Below are positions 9,900 through 15,727 of a stretch of 64,000 bases of DNA, in pieces. A program made the position numbers and the translations under genes. This stretch comes from an uncultured Treponema sp. (GTDB taxonomy: Bacteria > Spirochaetota > Spirochaetia > Treponematales > Treponemataceae). The notes beneath the pieces are model-generated. The model saw nothing but the letters and a program-made list of their open reading frames with translations. It was not told the DNA's origin and did no database searches. Every line of letters starts with the position of its first letter. Position 1 is the first letter of the stretch. The DNA lies in the NCBI GenBank assembly GCA_946615905.1, contig CAMOIE010000016.1, positions 1 through 64,000 of the forward strand, in the 5' to 3' direction.

Positions 9900-10253
9900 A
9901 TGGAAGTTATGAAGGTTTGGGGGGCACCTCAGATGTTGAGGTCGTCGTCTGCCCATGTCGGAACAGGTTCGCTTGTCAACTTGAGCCGCATGTATAAAAT
10001 GGGAGCCGGACACCAGTCTTCCGTCCAAGAGTCAAAGTCATTCGCAAGCTATCTTGCCGATGCCGCGACTCAGTTGAACGGAAAGCAGCTTGAGGTGAAT
10101 AGAATCCAGCAGCAGCTTGTTACAGATCCGGATTCTGTCGATGTCCACGATGTGACAACTGCTATGGCTAAGGCTCAGCTTTCTCTGAGCCTTGCGCAGA
10201 CTGTGATTGACCGCCTGATTACAAACTGGAACGAAATTTCCACGACAAAATAA
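9900..10253 (+). CDS. Second FliE-type flagellar hook-basal body protein (solitary copy)
   Basis: A 117-residue paralogue of the operon FliE at 12043-12387. The last 55 residues are very similar: both contain QLVTDPDSVD, then HDVTTAMAKAQ, then SLSLA and VIDRL. Both also open with a similar ME-x-M start and an AP-x-MLR motif, while the stretch between differs. FliE links the MS ring to the proximal rod and is the first rod protein exported. This copy has its own promoter and terminator, is outside the operon, and is separated from flgB by the oppositely oriented tmRNA. It may be an alternative or stage-specific rod adaptor. Confidence 0.85.
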   Translation: MEVMKVWGAPQMLRSSSAHVGTGSLVNLSRMYKMGAGHQSSVQESKSFASYLADAATQLNGKQLEVNRIQQQLVTDPDSVDVHDVTTAMAKAQLSLSLAQTVIDRLITNWNEISTTK

Positions 10254-10546: not shown

Positions 10547-10917
10547 TGGAGGTGGGGGGAGTCGAACCCCCGTCCGGGTACGCAAGTCGGGCACATCTAC
10601 AAGTTTAGTCATGCGAGGTGATTGTCGGGAGAAGGTAGCAGCATGACAAGCGTCTCCTCCGTATTCCGCTAAAAAGTCCCCCTTGTCGACCGGAAGCGGC
10701 AAAGAGCAAGTCCCTGTTGTCGTCAGAAGTTCACCCCGCTAGGAACAGCGCAGGGCGGCTTCCGGCTCAAGCAACTTACGCTGCGAGAGCTAACTGTTCG
10801 TTTGAAGAATCTTCTTCTTCTCTACGTTTGGCAGTTATAAGTTTTGTCAGATTGGGGCTCCTTCACACCCACCTGCCGCGCAGGCCTTCACGTACTCGTC
10901 GAAACCGGTGCACCCCC
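10547..10917 (-). ncRNA. ssrA: tmRNA (one-piece) with 18-residue proteolysis tag
   Basis: Rescues stalled ribosomes. On the minus strand the 5' end GGGGGTG pairs over seven bases, including one G-U, with CACCTCC at the 3' end, and the T-arm reads GGGGGTTCGACTCCCCC. The 3' CCA is not encoded. The 5' half contains GGTTTCGACGAGTACGTG, typical of tmRNA near the acceptor. The tag frame starts at GCC (10832) and stops at TAA (10776-10778), giving AKRREEEDSSNEQLALAA, which ends in the usual LAA degron. Length without CCA is 371 nt. Confidence 0.95.
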
Positions 10918-10953
10918 GATAGCTATCGAAGTTACCCGATTGGATATAGGCAA

Positions 10954-10982
10954 AATATAGTAAAAGTTTGTCTATAAGTCAA
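10954..10982 (-). promoter_or_regulatory. Promoter of the tmRNA gene
   Basis: On the minus strand TTGACT and TATATT are separated by 17 bp. The deduced start site is about 30 nt upstream of the mature 5' end, leaving a short leader for RNase P to remove. A 12-bp palindrome CGATAGCTATCG (10917-10928) touches the mature 5' end and may help define the cleavage site. Confidence 0.75.
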
Positions 10983-12042: not shown

Positions 12043-12387
12043 ATGGAAGCAATGCGGATTATGAGCGCGCCTGAAATGCTCAGGACTGATCCTGCACACG
12101 CGGGAATTTCCCCGCTCACTACAAATTTCGGCGTTAAGCATGACGCTCCTCTTTCTTCTATCAAAGAGAACACTTTTGCGTCATACTTGGTCGGAGCCGT
12201 TGACAAGATGAACGGCCAGCAGCTTGAAGTCGGACGTGTGACGGAACAACTTGTCACCGACCCGGATTCAGTAGATATACATGATGTGACCACGGCAATG
12301 GCAAAAGCCCAGATGTCGCTGTCACTAGCACACACAGTTATTGACCGCCTTGTTTCTGGCTGGAATGAACTGTCAACTTCAAGATAG
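12043..12387 (+). CDS. fliE: Flagellar hook-basal body protein FliE (operon copy)
   Basis: A 114-residue FliE joining the MS ring to the rod, in its standard place between flgC and fliF. The family core PDSVDIHDVTTAMAKAQMS sits at about residues 70-88. The N-terminal half differs from the solitary copy at 9900-10253, while the C-terminal half is closely similar. The start codon given leaves a 72-bp gap from flgC. Confidence 0.93.
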   Translation: MEAMRIMSAPEMLRTDPAHAGISPLTTNFGVKHDAPLSSIKENTFASYLVGAVDKMNGQQLEVGRVTEQLVTDPDSVDIHDVTTAMAKAQMSLSLAHTVIDRLVSGWNELSTSR

Positions 12388-12460: not shown

Positions 12461-14248
12461 ATGAACGAAAGGCTTAAAAAAGTTTCTTCTAAGTTAAAAG
12501 AGTCTTGGTCCAAGTGGTCCATTGTCCAAAAGGCGATTCTTGCGGGAATCGTCATTGCCGTTATCGTTGCCGTTGTTGTTCTTGTACGCACATCGGCCAC
12601 GCCTTCAGGTACTCGTCTTTTTGCCCGGCCGATAAGCGACCAGGAGCAGCTTGAAAATATTGAGAACCGCCTTGAGCAGGAGAACGTCAAGTATACTCCT
12701 ACAGCCGAAGGTTATATCCTCGTTGATGATGACAGGACGGCCCGCAAGGTAAAGTCAATCCTCTACACGGAGGGGCTTATCCCGACTGGAATGGATGCCT
12801 GGGATGTCTTTGACTCTTCCCAGAACAACTGGACTATGACGGATATCGAGCGCAACACCAACAAGCAGCGCGCAATTACCAATTTGGTTCGTCAGCAGAT
12901 TGAGGCTTTTGATGGTGTTGCAAAAGCCGATGTCGTAATCACATTCCCCGAAAAAGAAATTTTCTCAGAAAACCAGAAGCCCACAACGACCTCTGTCGTT
13001 CTGACTTTTAAACCTGGTTCTACGATGGCTCAGGACCGCAAGAAAATTGAGGGTGTCCAGAAAATCATTTTGGCCGCAGTCTCTGGCCTCAGCGCGGAGA
13101 ACCTCGTCATTTCCGACCGGGATGGCAACGTCCTCAACGATTTTGAGGGAATGGCCAATCTCGATGAGGTCAACGTCACTGAAAAAGAGCAGAAACTCGT
13201 CCGCAAGATGGAGGCTGACTACCGCAACCGTGTCCTTGAGGCATTGCGCGGAAACTTCTCCGAAGACCGAGTCCGCGATGTCGTTGTCCACGTTGACTTT
13301 GACCTCGTTCCTAAATACATCAGCGACAAGACGATTTATTCTCCTTTCGTAATGACTGAGCAGGATCCGACAAAGCCTTACGATACTTCCGTAAAGCAGG
13401 AGTCTGTCACCCTCTCATCCCAGAAAATCGAAAAAACTTGGACTGGCACAGGATACAATCCTGAAGGACCTGCCGGAGTAGAAGGACAGAATCCCCCTGT
13501 ATATTCCGACATGTCAAACGTGATTGGAAAGTCCACAGAAACAGGTGTCACTGAGAATAAGGCCATTAACACTGAGCAGCGTCACACAGAAGTCCGCAAG
13601 ACGACCCCTGACAGAATCACGGCCGCAGTCAACATCGACGGTCACTGGGAGACTGAGACAGACGGCTCCTCAAATCCGATTTTCGTCACGGAAAAGAACA
13701 TAGAGTCTCTTAAAGAAAAATATCCTGACTGGGAGTCAGGCGAGAATATCCGCTTTAAGCTCGGACATATTATCCGTGTTTACACTCCAGTTTCAAAGGA
13801 AAAACTCTCACAGGCTGAGGGCTTTGTGAAGAACGCAATCGGTTTCAGCCAGTCACGCGGGGACTCTGTTTCAGTGACTTCCTGGGCAATTCCCAGGGAA
13901 AACGAGTGGGACGCTGAGGACGCGGCTATAATCCGCCGCCAGCAGATGCGCCGCACAGTGATGCTGGTTCTCGCCGGTATTCTGATTATTTTGATTTCAT
14001 TCATCATCTTCAGGTTCGTAAGCCGGGAGCTTGAGAGACGTAGAAGACTCCGTGAGGAGGAAATCCTGCGCAAGCAGCGTGAGGAACGCGAGAGGGCACT
14101 TTGGGATGCCAAGAACGAGGGCATGGAAGTCACCATGTCTGTCGAAGAGCGCAAGAGGGCGGAGCTTCAGGAAAATGCGATTGCGATGGCCAAGGAACAC
14201 CCGGAGGATGTCGCAATGCTTATCCGCACCTGGTTGATGGAGGAATAG
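12461..14248 (+). CDS. fliF: Flagellar MS-ring protein FliF
   Basis: A 595-residue inner-membrane ring protein that houses the export gate and anchors the switch. One membrane helix at about 22-43, then the RBM1-RBM3 ring-building motifs (ENRLEQENVKYTPT; FPEKEIFSENQKPTTTSVV), a second helix near 504-527, and a charged cytoplasmic tail. The last residues, HPEDVAMLIRTWLMEE, are the FliG-binding motif. GGGAGGGT lies 7 nt before the ATG. It is followed after 3 bp by the unusual small gene at 14252. Confidence 0.97.
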   Translation: MNERLKKVSSKLKESWSKWSIVQKAILAGIVIAVIVAVVVLVRTSATPSGTRLFARPISDQEQLENIENRLEQENVKYTPTAEGYILVDDDRTARKVKSILYTEGLIPTGMDAWDVFDSSQNNWTMTDIERNTNKQRAITNLVRQQIEAFDGVAKADVVITFPEKEIFSENQKPTTTSVVLTFKPGSTMAQDRKKIEGVQKIILAAVSGLSAENLVISDRDGNVLNDFEGMANLDEVNVTEKEQKLVRKMEADYRNRVLEALRGNFSEDRVRDVVVHVDFDLVPKYISDKTIYSPFVMTEQDPTKPYDTSVKQESVTLSSQKIEKTWTGTGYNPEGPAGVEGQNPPVYSDMSNVIGKSTETGVTENKAINTEQRHTEVRKTTPDRITAAVNIDGHWETETDGSSNPIFVTEKNIESLKEKYPDWESGENIRFKLGHIIRVYTPVSKEKLSQAEGFVKNAIGFSQSRGDSVSVTSWAIPRENEWDAEDAAIIRRQQMRRTVMLVLAGILIILISFIIFRFVSRELERRRRLREEEILRKQREERERALWDAKNEGMEVTMSVEERKRAELQENAIAMAKEHPEDVAMLIRTWLMEE

Positions 14249-14251
14249 AAT

Positions 14252-14629
14252 ATGGAAAGTTTTCAGAAAGTCACCGCTCCGGCAATCAAGCTTACTGGAA
14301 GACAAAAGGCCGCCATTTTGAGCAACGCCCTTTCGCCGTCTGCTTTTAAGAATGTAGCGAAATTCCTCAATGACGAGGAGCTTGCCGCATTGAGTAGGGC
14401 CGCCCAGTCAACAGGAATCACATACAGCATAGAAAAAGAAAATTCCGTCCTTGAGCAGACTTGCAATGTCGGCGCAAGACGCGGATTCATAAAACTCACG
14501 ACCCTCCAGCGTATTCAAGATGAGTACGAGCAGGGAAAGGCACAGGCTTCTGCCGGAATCGCAGGAGTCACAGCAAAAGATACAGACAAAATCGCCCAAG
14601 TTTTGAGTATGTGGTTAAAGGAGGACTAG
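14252..14629 (+). CDS. FliG N-domain-like small protein with FliF-type C-terminal tail
   Basis: A 125-residue protein squeezed between fliF (3-bp gap) and fliG (3-bp gap), so it is surely co-translated with them. Residues 14-45 (LTGRQKAAIL, then VAKFLNDEELAALSRA) resemble the start of the FliG N-terminal domain, and the adjacent true FliG has LNGRQKAAIF and MKHLREDEVETLTFE at the matching places. The last 17 residues, KDTDKIAQVLSMWLKED, resemble the FliF C-terminal FliG-binding tail (PEDVAMLIRTWLMEE). FliG-N normally binds that tail, so the protein has both a possible socket and a possible plug. I do not recognise it as a named flagellar protein. Confidence 0.8.
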   Translation: MESFQKVTAPAIKLTGRQKAAILSNALSPSAFKNVAKFLNDEELAALSRAAQSTGITYSIEKENSVLEQTCNVGARRGFIKLTTLQRIQDEYEQGKAQASAGIAGVTAKDTDKIAQVLSMWLKED

Positions 14630-14632
14630 AAA

Positions 14633-15727
14633 ATGCCGGACGCAAAATCAGCTCCCAAGCCCGCGGCAAAACCGGGCAGTCTTAAACCTGTCGGTGGAGG
14701 CGGAAAAAAAGGTGGCGGAAAGGATTTCAAGAACCTCAACGGCCGCCAGAAGGCCGCAATCTTCCTTGTCTCACTTGGCTCTGACATCTCCTCTGAGGTC
14801 ATGAAGCACTTGCGCGAGGACGAGGTTGAAACCTTAACATTTGAAATCGCCCGCCTTGAAACCGTTGACGCTGAGGTAAAAGATCAGGTTCTGGAAGAAT
14901 TCCAGGAACTGATGAATGCCCAGAACTTCATCACGACCGGTGGTATCGACTATGCCCGTGAGTTGCTTGAAAAATCATTGGGCAGCCAGAAGGCAATCGA
15001 CATCATCAACAGGCTCACCTCAAGTTTGCAGGTTCGTCCCTTTGACTTTATCCGCCGCACTGACCCGGCCCACTTGCTCAACTTTATTCAGCAGGAATAT
15101 CCGCAGACAATCGCCTTGATTTTGGCCTATTTGGAGCCTAACAAGGCCGCTGTTATTTTGCAGAACCTTCCGCAGGAAATTCAGCCGGAAGTCTCAAAGC
15201 GTCTTGCCACTATGGACCGTACTTCTCCTGACGTTCTTCGTGAGGTTGAACGCGTTCTTGAGAAAAAACTTTCTACATTGTCCTCCGAAGACTACACTGC
15301 CGCCGGTGGTGTCGAGTCCATCGTTGAAATCCTCAACCTTGTCGACCGCTCTTCTGAGAAAGCGATTATCGAATCCCTCGAAGAGGACGATCCGGACTTG
15401 GCAGAGGAAATCAAAAAGCGCATGTTCGTGTTCGAAGACATCGTTATGCTCGACGACCGCGCCATCCAGAAGGTTTTGCGCGAAGTCGACACGCAGGAAT
15501 TGGCAAAAGCGCTTAAGTCTGTCGATACGGAAGTTCAGGACAAGATTTTCCGCAACATGTCAAAGCGCGCCGCCTCAATGCTCAAAGAAGACATGGAGTT
15601 CATGGGACCTGTCCGCTTGAAGGACGTTGAGGAAGCTCAGCAGAAGATTGTTTCCACTATCCGCCGCCTTGAGGATGCCGGTGAAATCGTCATCGCCCGC
15701 AGCGGTGAGGATGAGCTTGTCGTTTAA
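14633..15727 (+). CDS. fliG: Flagellar motor switch protein FliG
   Basis: A 364-residue rotor protein that couples stator force to rotation. FliG-N (from LNGRQKAAIF near residue 34) should bind FliF, the middle domain carries the EHPQ-like segment (QQEYPQTIALILAYL), and the C-terminal domain has the charged torque helix (FEDIVMLDDRAIQKVLREVD). The first 32 residues are a Pro/Lys/Gly-rich extension that is probably disordered and is unusual for FliG. Some spirochaetes have two FliG proteins; this operon-borne one corresponds to the copy usually called FliG2. Confidence 0.96.
   Translation: MPDAKSAPKPAAKPGSLKPVGGGGKKGGGKDFKNLNGRQKAAIFLVSLGSDISSEVMKHLREDEVETLTFEIARLETVDAEVKDQVLEEFQELMNAQNFITTGGIDYARELLEKSLGSQKAIDIINRLTSSLQVRPFDFIRRTDPAHLLNFIQQEYPQTIALILAYLEPNKAAVILQNLPQEIQPEVSKRLATMDRTSPDVLREVERVLEKKLSTLSSEDYTAAGGVESIVEILNLVDRSSEKAIIESLEEDDPDLAEEIKKRMFVFEDIVMLDDRAIQKVLREVDTQELAKALKSVDTEVQDKIFRNMSKRAASMLKEDMEFMGPVRLKDVEEAQQKIVSTIRRLEDAGEIVIARSGEDELVV

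Follow-up and report, generated by a model that had tools for sequence, protein, structure and literature searches.

A small extra gene, which we call X, lies between fliF and fliG in the flagellar operon of this treponeme. The head of its product is homologous to FliG domain D1, and its last ~18 residues are, judged from the sequences of the family as a whole, a tail of the FliF type. A tandem duplication spanning the fliF/fliG junction is the most likely origin of X. Our preferred explanation of the whole, held tentatively, is that this FliG D1/FliF-tail chimera modulates the joint between the MS-ring and the C-ring as an accessory, substoichiometric factor.

An extra gene between fliF and fliG

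In the window (the whole stretch of 64,000 nucleotides that was analyzed), ORF translations give the gene order flgB, flgC, fliE, fliF, X and fliG, then fliH-, fliI- and fliJ-like genes. X is an ORF of 125 amino acids with an ATG start, separated by 3 bp from the fliF stop codon (14246-14248) and by 3 bp from the fliG start (14633), and the initial annotation had these coordinates exactly right. The relevant features, with their basis where one applies, are as follows.

12461..14248, + strand: fliF, tail KEHPEDVAMLIRTWLMEE, presumed donor type for the X tail
14239..14243, + strand: GGAGG Shine-Dalgarno of X, within the final fliF codons (sequence)
14252..14629, + strand: extra gene X, FliG-D1/FliF-tail chimera, 125 aa (ORF, Pfam, family alignment)
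14288..14488, + strand: X head, D1 part of FliG_N (profile 1-66 of 104), residues 13-79 (Pfam, PDB profile, structure)
14489..14572, + strand: X variable linker, replacing FliG D2, residues 80-107 (family alignment, low pLDDT)
14573..14626, + strand: putative FliF-type C-terminal tail helix of X, residues 108-125 (profiles; modelled helix 108-124)
14620..14624, + strand: GGAGG Shine-Dalgarno of fliG, within the final X codons (sequence)
14633..15727, + strand: fliG (N, M and C domains; FliG_N at ~14732-15043), presumed donor type for the X head

Upstream of flgB lies a second fliE-like gene (9900-10253, + strand, 117 aa), whose product is 56% identical to that of fliE at 12043-12387; among 59 genomes sampled from the genus, this is the only one with two fliE matches. 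A possible tmRNA gene, judged from the sequence by eye, lies between the extra fliE and flgB (~10550-10960, - strand).

The head of X is FliG domain D1

The window copy of X scores 27.4 bits against Pfam FliG_N (PF14842; cut-off 25), with residues 13-79 covering positions 1-66 of the 104 in the profile, and it also exceeds the FliG_N cut-off in a whole-genome search. Relatives of X, aligned in 26 rows and encoding proteins of ~120-165 aa, share the motif LSGKEKAAILxGELG, an invariant E43, L67 and the tail tryptophan W121; 25 of the 26 match FliG_N (E<=0.01), in the initial two thirds of that model. When the family profile was compared with the PDB, it matched 5tdy_B, which is FliG complexed with FliF (E=8.5e-10), and hhalign of X with FliG gave 98.0% (P=2.9e-13).

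AlphaFold models of two family members, both predicted with intermediate confidence (mean pLDDT 62 and 64, pTM 0.55 and 0.54), have as their top structural neighbors FliG chains from both solved FliF:FliG complexes. The model of relative L106 superimposes on residues 4-69 of FliG in 5tdy_B at 1.1 Å over 65 residues (Z 8.4); for the window copy the nearest structures are 5wuj_B (Z 7.9) and 5tdy_D (Z 7.2), and the next entry is at Z 2.7. The structure-search tool warns that Z values of this size can be common among helical proteins, and the fold match carries weight mainly because the sequence match agrees. Thus, the initial annotation, which had read the start of X as a FliG N-domain look-alike and named structural similarity to FliG_N as a check, is borne out by Pfam, the structure models and profile-profile comparison alike: the X head is a homologue of FliG D1 and has its fold.

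The likeness goes no further than D1. Only profile positions 1-66 of 104 are covered, which leaves out the D2 helices, and the full-length FliG model TIGR00207 gives 15.9 bits against a cut-off of 226.7, over residues 13-86 only. In the Salmonella C-ring, D1 comprises FliG residues 1-67 and is wrapped by the FliF tail, and D2 (residues 73-99) completes D1 in the adjoining subunit (PMC11087270); FliG helices 5 and 6 pack onto the neighbor's helices 2 and 3 (PMC11528121). The structural match of X ends where FliG D1 ends. Because X matches D1 alone, and D2 is what links FliG subunits, X has the socket and lacks the ring-linking helices. Unlike FliG, it also lacks the M and C domains, and hence the FliM-binding, torque and stator-facing parts; in their place it has a variable linker and the FliF-type tail.

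The tail of the family resembles that of FliF

The linker varies across the family, in which 32-49 residues separate the conserved G74 from A115. In the model of the window copy, two helices follow the head (residues 82-93 and 108-124), with pLDDT <50 at residues 94-107. Profile comparison by hhalign gave 96.6% for the X tail against FliF (P=5.4e-10) and 94.8% for the whole of X against FliF (P=4.9e-8), with 0.1% for FliF against FliG as the negative control. The tail of the X profile matches the extreme C-termini of Bacillota FliFs. When a model of the FliF tail only was run over 5,980 distinct ORF C-termini from the window and the loci studied, X proteins ranked directly after true FliFs, with a best score of 33.7 bits; L121, listed among these matches, appears to be a partial FliF frame.

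In the family, 34 of 42 tails score above 99% of shuffles, and the motif PExVAxxIRxWL is found at the C-terminus. For the window copy alone, the tail score against the FliF-tail model is not significant (1.4 bits, reached by 15 of 200 shuffles), so the claim of a tail rests on the family. The end of X had been described as FliF-like from this copy; that description stands for the family and not for the window copy by itself. The broader bipartite reading, a FliG-N-like head plus a FliF-type tail, is supported by the relatives, the structure models and the profile comparison.

Like FliF-C, which forms a co-folded split domain with FliG (PDB 5tdy, 5wuj), the putative X tail is C-terminal and follows the pattern xPExVAxxIxxWLxE, ending 4-11 residues past the tryptophan. 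Unlike FliF, X is small and has neither of the YscJ/FliF ring-building Pfam domains, both of which are present in the adjacent FliF. Engineered or mutant FliF-FliG fusions (e.g. PMC6079021, PMC11481574) likewise unite the two partners of the joint in a single chain, but in X the order is reversed, with the FliG part first, and only the two interface pieces are present, beside intact FliF and FliG. Spirochaete FliG1, a second FliG, is similarly an extra FliG-like gene in the same genome, but it is a long FliG-type protein encoded elsewhere, whereas X is a ~125-aa chimera. In the genome studied here, a longer second FliG lies at C3:91399-92028 (L002, L004), in a 460-aa open frame; we take it to be the FliG1 expected of a spirochaete.

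X is confined to four genera and is patchy within them

Within the window's genus, about half of the genomes sampled carry full-length X (60, by our own count), as do 11 genomes from three other genera of the same family. Among the genomes sampled it is thus restricted to four genera of one treponeme family, which agrees with the initial annotation that such a gene is missing from the flgB operons of other spirochaetes. Elsewhere in the order and phylum, as sampled, the matches listed are FliG itself. The named carriers are MAGs with the labels Treponema, Treponemataceae, Spirochaetia or Spirochaetales, some of them from goat reticulum and horse faeces. A scan of genome contigs with a single protein gave no match, and with a narrower X profile the distant matches outside treponemes are FliG proteins of ~335 aa or longer. 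The viral contigs searched hold no relative of X, and so give no sign of phage carriage. We found no description of a FliG-N-only or FliG-FliF chimeric protein in the open literature searched, and Pfam and NCBIfam hold no model specific to X; X seems to be undescribed so far, absence from these sources not being proof.

The family is under purifying selection: pairwise dN/dS was 0.03-0.17 in ten pairs, a rough estimate, as dS is high in several. One copy (G052), suspected of being broken by an in-match stop, is intact, the stop lying upstream of the likely start.

A search of other treponeme operons, suggested as a check, found X between fliF and fliG in many carriers. In others it occupies varied sites that lack flagellar neighbors, and at the junctions examined in those genomes fliF directly adjoins fliG. 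No common neighbor of the moved copies was seen, and thus none points to a role. On the FliG tree, the three states of X (operonic, moved and absent) need at least 10 changes, and on the X tree the moves need about four; on these trees, loss and transfer look alike. Median changes per column on tip branches are 0.27 for X versus 0.023 for FliG, on differing sets; in the two pairs common to both trees, X is, as read, ~4 and ~6 fold faster. The window copy is itself a long branch on the X tree. X is therefore a patchy gene, often lost or moved, that evolves several times faster than FliG. Among close relatives, the FliF tail and FliG-N of carriers and non-carriers are almost identical, and both are too invariant to reveal co-variation with X.

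Matching junction sites and the probable origin of X

The fliF end, TGG-xxx-ATG-GAG-GAA-stop, contains the GGAGG of the following gene, and the X end, TGG-xxx-AAG-GAG-GAx-stop, contains the same site for fliG, such that the final codons of both genes serve at once as coding sequence and as ribosome-binding site. GGAGG is present at the X end in 15 of 23 operonic copies and in none of 20 moved copies. The tail motif xxVAxxIxxWL is kept in nearly all moved copies (the tryptophan is missing in L080). Thus, since moved copies have lost GGAGG and kept the motif, the tail is selected as protein and not as a ribosome-binding site.

This arrangement would be accounted for if a segment that starts within the 3' end of fliF and stops within the 5' part of fliG had been duplicated in tandem. 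Where the two copies meet, the sequence would read FliG-N and then FliF tail, giving fliF - [fliG head + fliF tail] - fliG with the junction copied on each side, so that X would have an equally short gap and a like stop/Shine-Dalgarno overlap at either end.

The same sites raise two other explanations. One is that the tail is convergent, a short acidic amphipathic end imposed by GGAGG on a shortened copy of FliG. The tail is indeed short, its final acidic residues coincide with GGAGG, and the window copy alone is not significant; we nevertheless consider this very unlikely, given the profile-profile match with its negative control, the persistence of xxVAxxIxxWL in moved copies free of GGAGG, and the fact that some moved copies are more FliF-like than operonic ones. 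The other is that X is a dispensable remnant of the duplication with no specific role, retained as a source of the Shine-Dalgarno for fliG. The GGAGG in the final codons of operonic copies and the repeated loss of X would fit, but the low dN/dS does not, moved copies with no fliG downstream still keep head and tail, and where X is absent the fliF end supplies the same GGAGG site. We give this explanation hardly any credence.

A possible role at the joint between the rings

From its sequence, X would be expected to bind both FliF and FliG: the head would be a socket able to take the FliF tail, the tail a plug able to take FliG D1, and, having no D2 helices, X would have nothing to donate to a neighboring subunit. 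A protein with socket and plug and no D2 could sequester free FliG, cap excess FliF tails or the end of a FliG chain, or loosen the FliF-FliG joint, which makes competitor, cap and assembly factor its candidate modes of action. At rest, the tail may close on its own head by way of the flexible linker.

X might instead be a closed unit, its tail folding back on its head like the co-folded FliF:FliG split domain, with a free face that may accept the D2 of a FliG neighbor, so ending or seaming the FliG chain, or bind something else. The linker is long enough, the window model shows two helices after the head, and head and tail stay together even in moved copies; model confidence in the linker is, however, low, and we give this arrangement a minor chance. 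It is also rather unlikely that X is a true added component of the rotor between FliF and FliG and thereby alters the coupling of both rings, be it as a layer, complete or partial, or as a seam subunit taking up the mismatch in FliF and FliG number. Distinctly less credible is an adaptor or spacer in which X heads take every FliF tail and FliGs take every X tail, forming an extra layer between MS-ring and C-ring. X does contain the two halves of the joint, in the right polarity, and would be translated between fliF and fliG, with a strong Shine-Dalgarno on each side. Against this, X is patchy, and the FliF tail and FliG-N are almost unchanged in close relatives that lack it; X evolves far faster than FliG, its variable linker would be odd in a torque-bearing layer, and the D2 helices by which FliG-N units are held together are missing from it (PMC11087270, PMC11528121). 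The proposal in the initial annotation of an adaptor or spacer layer with an effect on C-ring size is accordingly disfavored. Since relatives manage without X and their FliF tail and FliG-N hardly differ, we prefer an accessory modulator to a full spacer ring.

Some gut and rumen treponemes thus have an extra gene that pairs a copy of the socket of the FliG ring with a copy of the plug of the FliF ring, and its product could bind to the joint coupling motor and propeller, block it or regulate it. As X consists of just the two halves of this joint and has been gained, moved and lost among close relatives, it offers a natural experiment, and it may be a tool for blocking or tuning the FliF-FliG joint. 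It also suggests a simple route to an interface mimic, namely tandem duplication across a gene boundary.
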